Origin: a virus
Strand: one strand, 5' to 3'
Virus record (IMG/VR): IMGVR_UViG_3300035661_000268
Coordinates: 1-29,352 of that record
Length of the DNA: 29,352 bases
The notes under the pieces were generated by a model. It did no database searches and was not told the origin of the DNA. It saw nothing but the letters and a program-made list of their open reading frames with translations. The position numbers and the translations under genes were made by a program. Shown in pieces: positions 1,114 to 24,489 of this stretch. Positions within the stretch are counted from its first letter, which is position 1. Every line of letters begins with the position of its first letter.

Positions 1114-2202
1114 TTATTCAGATGCAGAATCTACCAACGATTTGCGTTTAGCCTTCATAGAGACTTTATCCACTTGATCTTTATCAATTTCATCTGGATC
1201 GACTTTAGTACTTAGATACACGTTACTTAATGCTTCAGCTCTAGTTAAAATTTCTTTAGCATCCATATCTTTTTCGTACCAAGTTTTTTCATCTCCAACG
1301 TATGCATATCGACTGCCACGTTTTTCAACTACACCCAAATTTACGGCTGCTTCTAGCAATCCTGATAGTGGATCCATACCTGTATCATAAGGAACTTCTA
1401 CGGTCACTGTTTGGAAAGGTTTAGTGAATCGTGTTTTGAATCCTTCAACTTTCATGCGGATACCTGTCACTTCCTTTTTATCGTCTTTTAATTTGAGTTT
1501 AGTTAGTAGAATGATCTGCGATAATGCATAGCGAATAGCTTGGTTAACCACCCATACACCTTCTCCTGCAAGAATTTGCTGCGCAGTGGCTTGATACACC
1601 TGAGCTGTGACTGCCATCGCAATGTTTTTACCTTTGATAGCTTGAACAAATTGCCGTAGCATTTGTTTTAATTGTTTAGCACGCAACCCCTGGTCGCTAG
1701 ACGAGTCACCTTTAGCAAAGTGTTCAGCTTCAGATTCAGTTGATAACATATCCAAACTATCGATAGCTATGAATATAGGAGGTGCGTCATCAGCATCTCC
1801 ATATTCTGCGGTATACCCCTTTATGAATGATGATACTACTTTGATAACTTGTGGTATAGTCGTTACTGACTTGTACATATAGTTATCATGTACATTAACA
1901 CCAATCTTACTCATATAATCATCATCTAGTGCATTTTCTGAGTCGATTACTAGAATAAAGGCACCTGCATCTTGAGCACTTTTAACAGCATTTCCTATTA
2001 TAAAGCTCTTACCAGACCCGGAAGGACCAACAATCCCAGTCAATCTACCTTGAGGAATACCTCGCATAAAGCTACCTGATAGGATTCTATTTAAGCAATA
2101 ATTACCAATGGGATACCAGTATCGTGGTGGTTCAGCAGATCCACCAATACCTTCTTCTTTATCCATTATTTTTTCAAAATCTTTAAGAAAGTTCATTGTC
2201 AT
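1114..2202 (-). CDS. uvsX: UvsX-like RecA-family recombinase
   Basis: This is a RecA/UvsX strand-exchange ATPase of 362 residues (T4 UvsX is 391). It polymerises on single-stranded DNA and drives strand invasion for recombination-dependent replication. The Walker A motif GPSGSGKS is at residues 59-66, a second conserved stretch LVIDSEN at about 84-90, and Walker B IFIAID at about 143-148. The acidic/basic C-terminal tail ends in KAKRKSLVDSASE. I start at the ATG at 2202 (MTMNFLKDF) because AAAGGAAA precedes it at good spacing. A longer in-frame start at 2259 would lie inside a 13-bp hairpin and lacks a ribosome-binding site. It follows gp32 (gap 75 bases) and precedes the unknown 176-aa gene and the UvsY-like gene, the expected partners. 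Confidence 0.93.
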   Translation of the reverse strand: MTMNFLKDFEKIMDKEEGIGGSAEPPRYWYPIGNYCLNRILSGSFMRGIPQGRLTGIVGPSGSGKSFIIGNAVKSAQDAGAFILVIDSENALDDDYMSKIGVNVHDNYMYKSVTTIPQVIKVVSSFIKGYTAEYGDADDAPPIFIAIDSLDMLSTESEAEHFAKGDSSSDQGLRAKQLKQMLRQFVQAIKGKNIAMAVTAQVYQATAQQILAGEGVWVVNQAIRYALSQIILLTKLKLKDDKKEVTGIRMKVEGFKTRFTKPFQTVTVEVPYDTGMDPLSGLLEAAVNLGVVEKRGSRYAYVGDEKTWYEKDMDAKEILTRAEALSNVYLSTKVDPDEIDKDQVDKVSMKAKRKSLVDSASE

Positions 2203-2231
2203 ATTTATTTCCTTTATTGTTTTATTATGAG

Positions 2232-2262
2232 AATATGTGCCATCACGGCGATGGCACATATT
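2232..2262 (-). terminator. Intergenic hairpin between gp32 and uvsX
   Basis: A perfect 13-bp inverted repeat (2232-2244 and 2250-2262) with a 5-base loop lies between the gp32 stop and the uvsX ribosome-binding site. It has no clear U-run on the minus-strand 3' side, so it may act as a partial terminator, an RNA-processing site or an mRNA stabiliser that sets gp32 above uvsX. Its function is not decided by sequence. Confidence 0.5.
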
Positions 2263-2277
2263 TAAAAATGAACTTAT

Positions 2278-3171
2278 TTAATTTGATTTGGCACGACGTT
2301 TACGAATTTCTTCAAGGATACGTTCAGCGTCCTCATCATCTTCATCATCGTTGTTAGTGTCTTCCGCCATTGATGGTTTAGCAATTTTGTTTGGAACTGG
2401 TTTTGTTACTAGGATATCATCATTCTCATCTTCTTTGGTAGCTTTACGGTCAGATGTTTTGTACTCAGTGCCATTCATCGCTGCCTCCAACATAGCTTCA
2501 ACCTTCTCAATACCTGGATTTTTAGGTAACAACGTAGATAAAGTTGCTAGTTGACTTTTGACATTTGCGATAGTTTCCTCATCTAGTGCACTTGAGTGTT
2601 TTACAAATTTACTCGTCGCATATGATGCATATTCACCCTGTTCCTTTTTCTTGATAACAAAGTTTGTACCTAACTCATAATCAAATGGGATATCTTCAAG
2701 GTCACCATCTTCAAATGCTGCTTTGATTAAATCGTATATCTGACTACCAAGAGCCACGAATCGTACTTTTCCTTCGTGATTCTCACCGGTTTCTTTATCA
2801 ACTGGAAGAGGATCCTCCATAACCAAAACTTGACCGATGTATTGACGTTTCTTCCAATATTTTTTACCATTTTCTTTGTCTTCGGCTTTGTAGTATGCTG
2901 CAGATACTTTACAGATTGGACAATCTTCGTCATACATTTTCATACATGGTACAGATTTTTTCTCACCATTGATTGTTAATGTATGCATCTGTTTTTCTAC
3001 AAGGAATCCCATGGGGTTGTCGGTGTCAGCATCAGGCAGAAAGCGAACCACAGCCTGTTCACCGAGTTTCATATTCCAAAATGGGTAGTAATTATTCTTT
3101 AGTCCCTCACCGTCGTTCGTGTCAGGTTTTTTGAATTGTGCTTTGAGTGCATCTAATGTAAGTTTAGCCAT
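2278..3171 (-). CDS. 32: Single-stranded DNA-binding protein, gp32-like
   Basis: The protein (297 residues; T4 gp32 is 301) coats single-stranded DNA during replication, recombination and repair. The core matches gp32: W32...GEQAVVRFLPD (37-47) resembles T4 GQAVIRFLP. The zinc site is conserved as H63, C76, C84 and C87 (C-x7-C-x2-C), as in T4 H64/C77/C87/C90. YWKKRQYIGQVLVMEDP continues the OB fold. The C-terminal region is acidic (EDTNNDDEDDEDAER), as needed for partner binding. Unlike T4 it ends in a basic helix (EEIRKRRAKSN) after the acidic stretch. Start at ATG 3171. The leader carries a hairpin and four AAGAGAA heptamers, suggesting autogenous translational control as known for T4 gp32. 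uvsX follows. Confidence 0.93.
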   Translation of the reverse strand: MAKLTLDALKAQFKKPDTNDGEGLKNNYYPFWNMKLGEQAVVRFLPDADTDNPMGFLVEKQMHTLTINGEKKSVPCMKMYDEDCPICKVSAAYYKAEDKENGKKYWKKRQYIGQVLVMEDPLPVDKETGENHEGKVRFVALGSQIYDLIKAAFEDGDLEDIPFDYELGTNFVIKKKEQGEYASYATSKFVKHSSALDEETIANVKSQLATLSTLLPKNPGIEKVEAMLEAAMNGTEYKTSDRKATKEDENDDILVTKPVPNKIAKPSMAEDTNNDDEDDEDAERILEEIRKRRAKSN

Positions 3172-3176
3172 ATTAT

Positions 3177-3259
3177 TTCTCTTTTCTCTTTTCTCTTATG
3201 ATTGTTTTTGTGAGAGATGTGACCCTGTGTCACTTTGATTTTAAGTTGGCGATTCTCTT
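3177..3259 (-). promoter_or_regulatory. gp32 mRNA leader: hairpin plus repeated AAGAGAA elements
   Basis: Three perfect tandem heptamers AAGAGAA (plus-strand TTCTCTT at 3177-3183, 3184-3190, 3191-3197) form the ribosome-binding region of gp32. A fourth copy (3253-3259) lies mostly in the 6-base loop of a perfect 9-bp hairpin (stem 3244-3252 with 3259-3267). A small GTGAC/GTCAC hairpin (3219-3233) and a TCTCTC stretch (minus strand of 3212-3217), which could pair with either AAGAGAA site, lie between. T4 gp32 represses its own translation through a leader pseudoknot and an unstructured A/U-rich operator. This arrangement looks like a different version of the same logic; that is inference. Confidence 0.5.
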
Positions 3260-3274
3260 CGCCAACTATTATCG

Positions 3275-3303
3275 ATATTAATACATATTGATAATCTAGT
3301 CAA
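3275..3303 (-). promoter_or_regulatory. sigma70-like promoter of gp32
   Basis: The minus strand reads TTGACT (3303-3298), 17 bases, then TAATAT (3280-3275). Expected transcription start is near 3268, exactly where the 9-bp leader hairpin begins, so the mRNA would carry that hairpin at its 5' end. A GATAAATA late-like box (3340-3333) lies further upstream and could add late transcription. Confidence 0.5.
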
Positions 3304-3320
3304 CAATTTAATAAATCAAA

Positions 3321-3348
3321 TTGTCATGATAGTATTTATCATTAAAAT
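3321..3348 (+). promoter_or_regulatory. Weak sigma70-like promoter for the glycosyltransferase
   Basis: TTGTCA (3321-3326), 16 bases, TAAAAT (3343-3348). It is divergent from the gp32 promoter. A 9-bp inverted repeat (3369-3377/3382-3390) containing TATAAT sits between it and the GAGG ribosome-binding site and could be an alternative -10 or a leader hairpin. No T4 late box precedes this gene. Confidence 0.3.
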
Positions 3349-17375: not shown

Positions 17376-18524
17376 CTACGCAAATGGATCAAAAGAGTTT
17401 GGATCATTGGGATCTGTGAATCCACCAGCTCCTCCATATCCTCCAGCACTATCGCCCATTGACATTGCTAAGCCAACATCACTTTCATCATATTCACCAA
17501 AATACTCCTCTTCGCTAACTGAATATAGCGTATCATAAGCATCTTGTTCGTATGTAGATATCTCTTCAAGTAATCGAAGAACTATGAGAACCGCTGATAT
17601 TGAGTCATCAGTTGAACCAATCTGAGCTTCATAACTTCCATTCTTACGAGCATAGTTTTTCATCTCACCTAATAAAGACTTAGATCTGATACCCAATTTA
17701 CTACGTTCTACTAATTGTTTGAAGTTTAAGCAAGCCCGAATTTTAGATTTCCCTGTTGTAGTCATTCCTAATCTACCTTTACCTTCTTCTGAAACAAATT
17801 CCCCTACATGAGGAGGATTTTCGTCAGCTTGGTATAGTGATATTATACCTTCACCTACACCATTATTTTCAACAGAGAAGTACACATTAGATCCTGCCAT
17901 ACTAGCCTTTTTCAGTATCCAAACTAGTGTTAAGTATAATACAGGGGATGATGTGGTGTTTGACCTAAACTCTGCAACTTGCTGCAAATCAGGAAATGAG
18001 AATACCTCAATCGAACTAAAGTCATTACCACTACCTGTAGCTGGGTCTACACCGATTAAGTACGTTTTTCCTTTTTCGAAGTTGCACCACCAATTAATAC
18101 CTCGGGCATCAGGCTCCGTCATATTTACCTGATCGTTTAATGTATGTAGAAGTATCGAACTAATCAATAATGCATCCGAAGATAAGAAGATGCAATTATG
18201 ACATAATAACCCATTTGCGAAGTAGGTGTGTGTCTCGGTATTTATTATATCATATGTTGTCTCTTCGCCTACATATGATATGGATGTAATGGTTTTGTTT
18301 GGTATACCTATCAAAACCAACCCTATCATCAACTCCTTTGTTCGTATCTCACGTCCATCTTCTGTAAAAAATACATGATTATTTGAAGCATCTATGTCCG
18401 TACCATCATCGAATAATACTTTCCATATGTGTTTTATACCCTGATCGGAGATCCCTTGAAAGTCTACATATCCCTCTTGGGTTTGTACTTTCCAACCTCG
18501 GTTATTAACTGCCATTTGGTTCAT
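17376..18524 (-). CDS. 17: Intein C-half fused to the nuclease half of terminase large subunit
   Basis: The 382-residue product starts with a 110-residue intein C-fragment (block B-like DASNNH, 45-50; block F YDIINTETHTYFANGLLCHN, 91-110) and then the C-extein from C111. The extein (272 residues) is the RNase H-like nuclease of gp17. GVDPATGSGNDFS carries the first catalytic Asp (extein D50), YFSVENNGVGEG the Glu (E109), and GSTDDSISA the last Asp (about D197), matching T4 D401/E458/D542. It cuts concatemeric DNA during packaging. ATG 18524 has AAAGGG about 8 bases upstream. Function should require trans-splicing to the ATPase half coded at 18657-19550. No own promoter is evident. Confidence 0.9.
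   Translation of the reverse strand: MNQMAVNNRGWKVQTQEGYVDFQGISDQGIKHIWKVLFDDGTDIDASNNHVFFTEDGREIRTKELMIGLVLIGIPNKTITSISYVGEETTYDIINTETHTYFANGLLCHNCIFLSSDALLISSILLHTLNDQVNMTEPDARGINWWCNFEKGKTYLIGVDPATGSGNDFSSIEVFSFPDLQQVAEFRSNTTSSPVLYLTLVWILKKASMAGSNVYFSVENNGVGEGIISLYQADENPPHVGEFVSEEGKGRLGMTTTGKSKIRACLNFKQLVERSKLGIRSKSLLGEMKNYARKNGSYEAQIGSTDDSISAVLIVLRLLEEISTYEQDAYDTLYSVSEEEYFGEYDESDVGLAMSMGDSAGGYGGAGGFTDPNDPNSFDPFA
18195..18524 (-). other. Split intein C-fragment (IntC, 110 aa)
   Basis: This is the coding span of the intein C-half, from M1 to the terminal Asn (C-H-N), followed by Cys as the +1 extein residue. Both C-terminal splicing residues (His-Asn) and the +1 nucleophile are present. 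There is no endonuclease domain. Its long length beside a short N-half matches the AceL-TerL arrangement. Confidence 0.85.
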
Positions 18525-18656: not shown

Positions 18657-19550
18657 TTACACCAAACTATCATTATTTTCTAATTTATAATATAACTCTT
18701 TCATTGTTAACATTTTTTTGTTACCAAATTCATCCATTATGGTCACAAAAGTATATCCGGGGCAGCACTCATATTCCTGTTGCCATTTCTCTTCACCAAT
18801 TTTTGCAATTTCAGCCCGTTTGAATGATTCGTCACGACCAGGTGGTTCATCCCATTTAACCCACGTAGATTTAAAATCACTAATACCTAATTCCGCACTT
18901 CTCCACAATTGGGCGAATAAATTAGAGTCTCCATTTGGTGTAGATGCAATAATACACGATCCACCCGTAGCCAATGTTGGTGATATCGATGTCCAAAATT
19001 CTTCTTGTATACCAGGTCTAACAAAAGCAAACTCGTCGCAAAATAGTAAAGATATTGACATACCACGACCGGAGTTTTCTGATGTTGCAGCTGATACAAT
19101 ACGACTCATGTTATCAAAACCAACACCGTGTTTATTCCAACCGTCATCTGCAACACCTGGTTTGAGCCACGCTGGCAAATATTCATACGCATATCTAATA
19201 CGCGAAATCATTTCCATTGCGTTAGAATTTTTATTTGCTGCTATGAGGACAGTTTTATCTTCATTAAAAATAGCATACCACAATAAGAATGCTGCTGATG
19301 TGGTAGATTTACCAGTCTGTCTGGCGGATAGTACGATATTGTATCGGTTGTGTTGATAATTATAGATTAACGTTCGTTGATAATCATACAATTCAAATTT
19401 GATAGCCCCTTTTATAGGGTGTTGAATCATCACATAGGTTTCGATGAAATATACCGGATCTTGTGAACATTTGAGTAATTCTCTTACCTGTTCGGGGGTA
19501 TATTCCATTTCTTCATGGGCACGCTTGATGCGTGGATTTCTAACCGCCAT
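18657..19550 (-). CDS. 17: ATPase half of terminase large subunit with intein N-half
   Basis: The 297-residue product is the N-extein (1-261) plus a 36-residue intein N-fragment. The N-extein is the packaging ATPase: ELYDYQRTLI (53-62, adenine-binding Q motif), Walker A SARQTGKST (75-83), Walker B LLFCDEF (168-174) and coupling motif IIASTPNG (200-207). It ends EKWQQEYE, the point where T4-type terminases continue directly with Cys. The next residues C-C-P-G-Y-T-F-V match the intein block A pattern C1-x-x-G-x-T-x-V. A stop follows 36 residues later. ATG 19550 has AGGAG; late box at 19583-19576. After splicing, terminase would be 533 residues (T4 gp17 is 610). Confidence 0.92.
   Translation of the reverse strand: MAVRNPRIKRAHEEMEYTPEQVRELLKCSQDPVYFIETYVMIQHPIKGAIKFELYDYQRTLIYNYQHNRYNIVLSARQTGKSTTSAAFLLWYAIFNEDKTVLIAANKNSNAMEMISRIRYAYEYLPAWLKPGVADDGWNKHGVGFDNMSRIVSAATSENSGRGMSISLLFCDEFAFVRPGIQEEFWTSISPTLATGGSCIIASTPNGDSNLFAQLWRSAELGISDFKSTWVKWDEPPGRDESFKRAEIAKIGEEKWQQEYECCPGYTFVTIMDEFGNKKMLTMKELYYKLENNDSLV
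18660..18767 (-). other. Split intein N-fragment (IntN, 36 aa)
   Basis: The coding span for the intein N-half begins at Cys262 of the N-terminal terminase product. Block A residues Cys1, Gly4, Thr6 and Val8 are present. The fragment contains one further helix-like region (MKELYYKLE). Such a short N-half is unlike canonical split inteins (about 100 residues) and like AceL-TerL (about 25 residues). Confidence 0.85.
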
Positions 19551-22866: not shown

Positions 22867-24489
22867 ATGAATGAAAAATTGAAATCGCTAATAGATCGAA
22901 GTAATACACTTAAAAAGTGTGGTAAGTTAAAAACACATCCCGGATACCCAGAACTGTTGGAATTGACACAGTTTCTCCCTTTAACAGCTTTTGTTTCTAC
23001 CAGGATATGGCATGTAACCAATAATATACTATATATTCCATTATGTAAAATGTGCACCAACCAAACCAAATGGCGCAAGGAGACAAATACATATAACATA
23101 TATTGTGGTTCCAAGTGTGCACATTCTGATGCCTCTGTAATAGAGAAAACCAAAAAAACTAATCAAGCAAAATATGGAGCCGATACTGCAATGCAGAATG
23201 TAGATATTCGGGAAAGAATTATTCAATTGTGGGTGGATAATATGGGTGTTGATAACCCATCTAAATCTACCACCGTTAAATATAAAAAACAAAACACCAG
23301 CCAACTAACTTATGGGGTGCCACACTCTTTGAGTAGCCCTATTGTTATTAGAGCTAGACAACAAAGCAATTTGTTAAAATATGGACATACGAATGTATTA
23401 GCGTCTACCTACGGCAAGGAAACATCTCATAAATCCATGCTAGATAGATATGGAAAATCCTATCCTAATCAACAACATATTAGTGATGACACGTTCGCGT
23501 TACTTAATAACAAAGATTGGTTATACGATCAACATTATGTATTACAAAAAACGCTTACTACAATCGCATCTGATATCGGGGTAGATGGAGTTACTGTCAG
23601 TAAATATTTACATAACCATGGACTGATAACCAAATATCACCAATGTTCAACTGGGGAACGAGCTGTGGGGGATTTTATTGAACAGTTAGGGGTAAATATC
23701 ACCCGTAATGATAGGAGTATTATACCTCCATTGGAAATTGATATTTTTATACCTGAACATAATTTAGCTATTGAATATTGTGGATTGTATTGGCACAGTG
23801 ATCAATTGGGAAAACACAAAAACTATCACAAATCTAAATACGAAGAGTGCAAAAAAAGAGGTATTCATCTATTGACTATATTTGAGGATGAATGGCTACA
23901 AAAGACTGAAATATTTCATAAAAAGATAGTATATCTCTTGAACAAATCACCAAACCGGGTATATGCCAGGCACTGTGACATTCAAACATTAACTGCTAAT
24001 CAGAAGCGCTTGTTTCTGCAAGAAAATCATATTCAGGGCAATGGTGCAGGGTCAATTAATTATGGATTAATATATGATGGTATAATAGTAGCTTGTATAA
24101 CATTCCAACAAACATCACCTGGAGTCTATCTATTGAATAGATATGCAACATCGGTTAATGTAGTTGGTGGATTTAGTAAATTATTGAACCACTTCAAAAG
24201 AAATATAAAATGGACTAAAATTACAACATTTGCAGATCAGCGATTTAGTAATGGAGATTTATATAATATTAATGGTTTTACTTGTGATAAAATAATTCCA
24301 CCAGATTACTATTATTCCCCTGATGGGATAAACAGATTCCATAAATCAAATTACCGCCGAAAGAATTTACCACATTTATTAAAACAGTTTGACCCAGCAT
24401 TAAGTGAAGTAGAAAATTGTTTGAATAATAATATATTAAGAATATGGGATTGTGGAAAACTTCGTTATGTATTAACTAATTATACATAA
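22867..24489 (+). CDS. Free-standing Vsr-like homing endonuclease with zinc and NUMOD-like repeats
   Basis: The 540-residue protein has several parts. First is a zinc-binding site CKMC...CGSKC (C60, C63, C80, C84). Next comes a run of short repeats of the form K/R-Y-G-x (near 103, 149, 172, 195), which resemble DNA-contacting repeats of phage homing endonucleases. A helix-turn-helix TTIASDIGVDGVTVSKYL (231-248) follows. The catalytic core is LEIDIFIPEHNLAIEYCGLYWHS (289-311), HKSKYEECKKRGIHLLTIFEDEW (321-343). The E-x-D...E-Y-x-G-x-Y-W-H and I-F-E-D-E-W blocks place it in the Vsr-like, I-Bth0305I-type family. It lies between gp19 and gp18 on the opposite strand, as expected for an inserted mobile gene. 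ATG 22867 follows GGAAGG. A shared terminator lies at 24551. Confidence 0.82.
   Translation: MNEKLKSLIDRSNTLKKCGKLKTHPGYPELLELTQFLPLTAFVSTRIWHVTNNILYIPLCKMCTNQTKWRKETNTYNIYCGSKCAHSDASVIEKTKKTNQAKYGADTAMQNVDIRERIIQLWVDNMGVDNPSKSTTVKYKKQNTSQLTYGVPHSLSSPIVIRARQQSNLLKYGHTNVLASTYGKETSHKSMLDRYGKSYPNQQHISDDTFALLNNKDWLYDQHYVLQKTLTTIASDIGVDGVTVSKYLHNHGLITKYHQCSTGERAVGDFIEQLGVNITRNDRSIIPPLEIDIFIPEHNLAIEYCGLYWHSDQLGKHKNYHKSKYEECKKRGIHLLTIFEDEWLQKTEIFHKKIVYLLNKSPNRVYARHCDIQTLTANQKRLFLQENHIQGNGAGSINYGLIYDGIIVACITFQQTSPGVYLLNRYATSVNVVGGFSKLLNHFKRNIKWTKITTFADQRFSNGDLYNINGFTCDKIIPPDYYYSPDGINRFHKSNYRRKNLPHLLKQFDPALSEVENCLNNNILRIWDCGKLRYVLTNYT

Follow-up and report, generated by a model that had tools for sequence, protein, structure and literature searches.

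In bacteriophage T4, the single-stranded DNA binding protein gp32 first binds a pseudoknot in its own mRNA and then extends across a region of unstructured repeats and the ribosome-binding site (PMC535899, PMC3014915). Autogenous repression through this pseudoknot has been demonstrated for T4 and RB69, and the gene 32 operator of T4, T2, and RB69 combines a 5' pseudoknot with UUAAA repeats (PMC535899, PMC3014915). In 2010 the T4-type pseudoknot was called possibly the sole viral pseudoknot in translational autoregulation; it was reported missing in RB49, and a broader survey of T4 relatives was urged (PMC3014915). The E. coli ribosomal protein S15 (rpsO) likewise represses its own synthesis via a leader pseudoknot, a parallel drawn in the same paper (PMC3014915). 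It differs in that the protein is another one and there is no repeat lattice. S15 acts by ribosome entrapment, unlike the gp32 operator. The manA and wcaG motifs of cyanophages are also structured leaders in T4-like phages and metagenomes, but they belong to other genes and have other folds (PMC2864571). A wider gp32-leader family was not described in the literature we searched; it may have been described in journals beyond that search.

The window analyzed here is the complete 29,352-base record IMGVR_UViG_3300035661_000268 of a T4-like virus. Homologues of gp32, UvsX, and UvsY lie in one row on its minus strand. Gene 32 (2278–3171, minus strand) encodes a gp32 of 297 residues (PF08804, E 1e-14; phrog_1192, E 6e-40), and a uvsX-like recombinase gene (1114–2259, minus strand; phrog_97, E 5e-59) adjoins it downstream. 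The leader, at 3172–3267, sits directly upstream of gene 32, as an operator of this gene would. A megablast search with 24 kb of the window, including the leader, matched no phage record and no close isolate, and a plasmid search gave no match to gp32. No Rfam family matched the leader or eight other loci. An exact search of viral contigs for the core of the window's hairpin gave 29 matches, none near a gp32 gene, which by our own estimate is about the chance expectation for a 16-mer.

Elsewhere in the window, the terminase large subunit is encoded in two open reading frames on the minus strand (18657–19550 and 17376–18524). The frame of the N-terminal half closes, after ...QEYEC, with CPGYTFVTI, which resembles the start of an intein, and about 35 residues, and the C-terminal half starts with about 110 residues ending in ...LLCHN|C, an intein C-terminal splicing region. 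From these sequences the pair looks like an atypically split intein, which we take to be similar to AceL-TerL. A free-standing HNH-type homing endonuclease gene is found on the opposite strand among structural genes (22867–24489, plus strand; phrog_3339, phrog_559).

On the minus strand, the leader starts with a hairpin, AGTTGGCGA-AGAGAA-TCGCCAACT in the DNA (3267–3244), with 9 perfect pairs. Its 5' arm (AGUUGGCGA, 3259–3267) and 3' arm (UCGCCAACU, 3244–3252) form stem 1, as indicated by sequence, folding, and the leaders of relatives, and they enclose the loop AGAGAA (3253–3258). A 10-nt A-rich linker, a second hairpin, a single A, and the stretch UCUCUC (3217–3212) follow. After a further 14 nt come three exact tandem copies of AAGAGAA (3197–3191, 3190–3184, and 3183–3177), a short AU-rich spacer, and the AUG. 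A fourth copy of the heptamer (3259–3253) consists of the 6-nt loop and the final base of the 5' arm. The sequence-only reading had pointed out the heptamers, the perfect hairpin, and the pyrimidine stretch, and all are present as described; it had said nothing of the second hairpin. It had also placed the hairpin at the very 5' end of the mRNA. A sigma70-type promoter, TTGACT-17-TAATAT (3275–3303, minus strand), ends 7 nt before the hairpin and has a predicted start at about 3268/3267, which agrees with that placement; it is a consensus match at 9 of 12 positions, and such matches are common.

The 144-nt segment that contains the leader folds better than all 200 shuffled versions (z -4.4). 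The first five bases of the loop can pair with UCUCU (3213–3217), which would form stem 2 of an H-type pseudoknot, and the score of these five AGAGA/UCUCU pairs together with stem 1 was matched by none of 1000 shuffles. A 5-nt complement to the loop within 45 nt downstream, however, arises in about 5% of shuffled downstream sequences of the window, so that the case for the pseudoknot in the window rests mainly on its relatives. The window's own loop is slightly non-canonical, with an A-U closing pair and 6 nt.

Related loci were collected from viral contigs with the window's gp32 (40 loci), by gp32 alignment (80), by alignment of the closest gp32 sequences (19), and from genome contigs (1), with overlap among the sets. 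After selection, 62 distinct metagenomic leaders of at least 110 nt were kept, including that of the window. The single locus from genome contigs (L125), on a phage-like contig filed under an archaeal MAG, has a canonical pseudoknot. When the leaders are read side by side, they share a layout that opens with a late promoter NATAAATA and a sigma70 promoter. Hairpin 1 follows, often joined by hairpin 2, and then a short pyrimidine-rich stretch that is complementary to loop 1; repeats rich in A and G, a Shine-Dalgarno sequence, and the AUG complete it. Judged from these leaders, this layout is a family trait of gp32 leaders, not a one-off. Tight H-type pseudoknots were searched for with our own stacking-energy heuristic, whose energies are approximate. 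A score of -18 or lower was reached by 31 of the 62 gp32 leaders. Of the dinucleotide shuffles 0.8% reach it, and of 149 leaders that belong to other genes on the same contigs 8% do; about half of the gp32 leaders do not reach this strict score.

To assess the loop pairing itself, hairpins were picked by stem energy alone, so that there was no selection on the pairing being tested, and the 40 nt downstream were scored against the loop. Loops pair with their own downstream sequence at a mean of -6.96, compared with -4.21 when the partners are swapped, and none of 20000 permutations was as good (z -8.7). Among 36 canonical hairpins of the form G-N5-C, 29 have a perfect Watson-Crick partner downstream for the whole loop, compared with 2.5% for swapped partners taken from leaders with a different loop. 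A first version of this comparison had 38 hairpins and allowed G-U pairs; L019 and L089 were set aside from it, as the hairpins picked there were an upstream one and hairpin 2, respectively, and not hairpin 1. Because identical or related phages are not independent, distinct loops and changes on a tree are reported as well. The 36 hairpins carry 18 distinct loops, and at least 23 loop changes occurred on the gp32 protein tree of 44 loci. The second pair of stem 2 is A-U, C-G, U-A, or G-C in different phages, and sister pairs on the tree show compensated changes (AAGAG/CUCUU and AAGGG/CCCUU; AGAAG/CUUCU and AGAGG/CCUCU). The leader-specific pairing and the many loop changes indicate that the conserved element is an H-type pseudoknot, and the fold is thus supported by covariation. 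The covariation check in related leaders that had been proposed for the window therefore speaks for its T4-like pseudoknot through UCUCU.

The pseudoknot is not uniform across the phages surveyed. Among close gp32 relatives, L002, L010, and L048 have no clear canonical pseudoknot, and in L175 and L189 it is, by our own reading, apparently present with irregular stems. The same finder recovered the classic T4-type gene 32 pseudoknot in T4, T2, KpV477, and CHI14, and it found none in RaK2, SCTP-2, DLP6, CC31, Atu_ph07, and Phosso. In the cultured jumbo phage PA5oct (L045), a hairpin AGTTTTGC-AGCTAACCCGA-GCAAAACT at about 820–950 with GGGTTTAG downstream is a possible gp32-leader pseudoknot. In the cyanophages S-PM2 (L131) and S-H9-2 (L139), the place of the pseudoknot is taken by two hairpins, one of them long, G+C-rich, and terminator-like.

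Hairpin 2 of the window (GUGAC-ACAGG-GUCAC, 3219–3233, minus strand) lies in loop 3 of the pseudoknot and abuts stem 2; none of 200 shuffles was as stable. A hairpin that ends 0–2 nt before stem 2 is present in all 19 leaders with a loop 3 of at least 18 nt, including the window, with quite different sequences, and leaders with a loop 3 of 5–14 nt have no such hairpin. For 12 of the 19 hairpins, stability exceeds that of 95% of shuffles; the sequences shuffled are very short. Hairpin 2 likely draws the ends of loop 3 together. A terminator at this position was considered and rejected, as gp32 is encoded on the minus strand and the terminator-like site lies on the plus strand.

The sequence-only reading had gone further and proposed two alternative partners for UCUCUC, the loop and the AAGAGAA repeats, between which the leader could switch by itself, leaving its ribosome-binding site open in one state and masked in the other. 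In the window, the two pairings are built from the same five base pairs (AGAGA/UCUCU, stacking energy -8.0 kcal/mol), and it is the masking helix that appears in the nested minimum-energy fold. Such a toggle is possible there physically, the stacking energies being equal, but selection for it is not seen. When 36 leaders are compared, the 3' strand of stem 2 matches its own ribosome-binding region no better than that of other leaders (-5.62 and -5.60), with 9447 of 20000 permutations being as good. Across leaders it is the loop pairing that is conserved, unlike the masking pairing, and no conserved alternative pairing of the same strand that would mask the ribosome-binding site was found. The display of the ribosome-binding heptamer in the loop does not hold up either, since 5 of 36 leaders, against 3.4 expected, carry the 5-mer of their loop again in the ribosome-binding region. 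In relatives, the pseudoknot fold is retained, and the identity of the loop with the repeat is not. On these comparisons we reject the toggle pairing and the loop/repeat identity as family traits, and we consider a leader that works as such a switch very unlikely.

The triple AAGAGAA (3177–3197, minus strand) is unique in the window even when 3 mismatches are allowed. When the final 60 nt were shuffled 5000 times with dinucleotides preserved, three copies of AAGAGAA never arose, and some 7-mer or other occurred three times in 2% of the shuffles. Counted over the final 100 nt of 59 leaders, AAGNGAA is found 63 times, compared with 10 in shuffles, and GAAGNGAA 47 times, compared with 2.2. Per leader, gp32 leaders exceed those of other genes of the same phages for both AAGNGAA (1.03 and 0.05) and GAAGNGAA (0.77 and 0.02). 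According to these counts, the window's triple AAGAGAA is a local, perfectly tandem version of the family-wide purine repeat. Structure beyond chance was not found in the region next to the AUG in relatives (z 0.01). Thus, as in T4 and as had been suggested for the window, the ribosome-binding site lies in a stretch of unstructured repeats between the pseudoknot and the AUG. The T4 repeat (UUAAA/UAAA) is absent from the window and at chance level in relatives (16 occurrences and 17.3 expected); UUAAA occurs three times in T4 and twice in T2.

Runs of AATAATAA are enriched in gp32 leaders as well (0.50 per leader, compared with 0.027 in other leaders), for example in L004 and L005, and they resemble RNAs selected with RB69 RegA (PMC3014915). 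Another factor, such as RegA with its AAUAAUAAU-type sites or a host protein, might accordingly read the leader, with the pseudoknot as its ligand. RegA sites, however, are without RNA structure, and the gp43 operator of T4 lacks a pseudoknot (PMC3014915); a long AATAATAA run is also missing from the window. We regard this explanation as highly improbable, but RegA could act on gp32 leaders in addition.

Upstream of the leader, the window has a late-promoter-like GATAAATA (3333–3340, minus strand), a match to the consensus in sequence only. Among relatives, 40 of 44 leaders have NATAAATA no more than 90 nt upstream of stem 1 or the pseudoknot, and it is present in 81% of gp32 leaders compared with 6% of other leaders. 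In many relatives a sigma70-type -10 element ends 4–9 nt before stem 1, which fits a predicted start at the stem's first base. In L016, L018, and L019 the -10 element abuts stem 1, so that a sigma70 transcript would start inside it. An imperfect inverted repeat spans the sigma70 promoter of the window (3268–3295, minus strand; p 0.045). In 23 of 34 leaders this promoter-spanning repeat folds better than 95% of shuffles (p ≤0.05; mean z -2.5), and the inverted repeat between the late promoter and stem 1 varies in sequence, for example in L016, L077, L118, and L119. Going by its sequence and position, the repeat might serve as a DNA operator, or else fold into a 5' hairpin in late-promoter transcripts only. 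A bolder and, in our view, doubtful proposal is that the leaders are a widespread uncatalogued RNA family with a two-promoter logic. Sigma70 transcripts would start from stem 1, and late transcripts would carry the promoter-spanning hairpin and the full pseudoknot, with autogenous repression on only later in infection. If so, the sigma70 transcripts of L016, L018, and L019, apparently begun inside stem 1, could not form the pseudoknot.

That 5' hairpins and the upstream promoter hairpin are common in gp32 leaders would also suit a more modest role, in which these hairpins and the pseudoknot merely protect the 5' end of the mRNA or place an RNase site. The repeats would then be a strong or redundant ribosome-binding site, for which their purine-rich sequence is suitable, and gp32 would not be involved. 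RNase E indeed processes the T4 gene 32 leader beside its pseudoknot (PMC3014915). A plain stabilizing hairpin, however, would need no covarying pairing between loop and downstream sequence, and the repeats reach well past the Shine-Dalgarno sequence and are nearly missing from the leaders of other genes. We consider this role unlikely.

Compared with the operator of T4, T2, and RB69 (PMC535899, PMC3014915), the new leaders match in gene, position, and H-type pseudoknot topology, but not in sequence, where there is no similarity. The linkers beside the stem-2 strand are likewise 0–1 nt, the 3' edge of the pseudoknot lies about 35–40 nt before the AUG in T4, T2, and the window alike, and unstructured repeats cover the ribosome-binding site. 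T2 also has TATAAATA just upstream. In contrast, stem 1 of the new leaders is longer (5–9 bp or more), stem 2 is usually 5–6 bp rather than 7 bp, and loop 3 has 5–29 nt rather than 5–7 nt and often holds a second hairpin, whose sequence varies. The repeats are GAAGNGAA/AAGAGAA instead of UUAAA, and the promoter is spanned by an inverted repeat.

We favor the reading that the leader is an autogenous translational operator of gp32, and probably a widespread new variant of the T4 kind. The mRNA would start at stem 1 or just before it, and the loop of stem 1 would pair with UCUCU 26 nt downstream to give the H-type pseudoknot, a pairing supported by the covariation in relatives. Hairpin 2 may be held in loop 3 against stem 2 in the three-dimensional arrangement. 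When there is more free gp32 than single-stranded DNA to cover, gp32 would bind the pseudoknot as a nucleation site, extend along the purine repeats, which are unstructured, to cover the ribosome-binding site, and block initiation, as in T4 and RB69. By the same analogy we infer that the gp32 of the window phage binds and represses its own leader. The tandem AAGAGAA would serve as binding lattice and Shine-Dalgarno region, not as a partner of the loop, and the pairing sequence would be free to drift while the fold is kept.

A long-standing question is what a sequence-nonspecific DNA-binding protein recognizes in its own mRNA, whether the fold, the repeat sequence, or both. Nature supplies many versions of the pairing, which the gp32 tree shows to have changed no fewer than 23 times, and this makes the question testable; the second hairpin and the different repeat reveal exchangeable parts of the operator. 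Because the two halves of the knot have changed together in dozens of uncultured T4-like phages, gp32 self-shutoff of the T4 type is probably much commoner, and more variable in build, than earlier accounts suggest.
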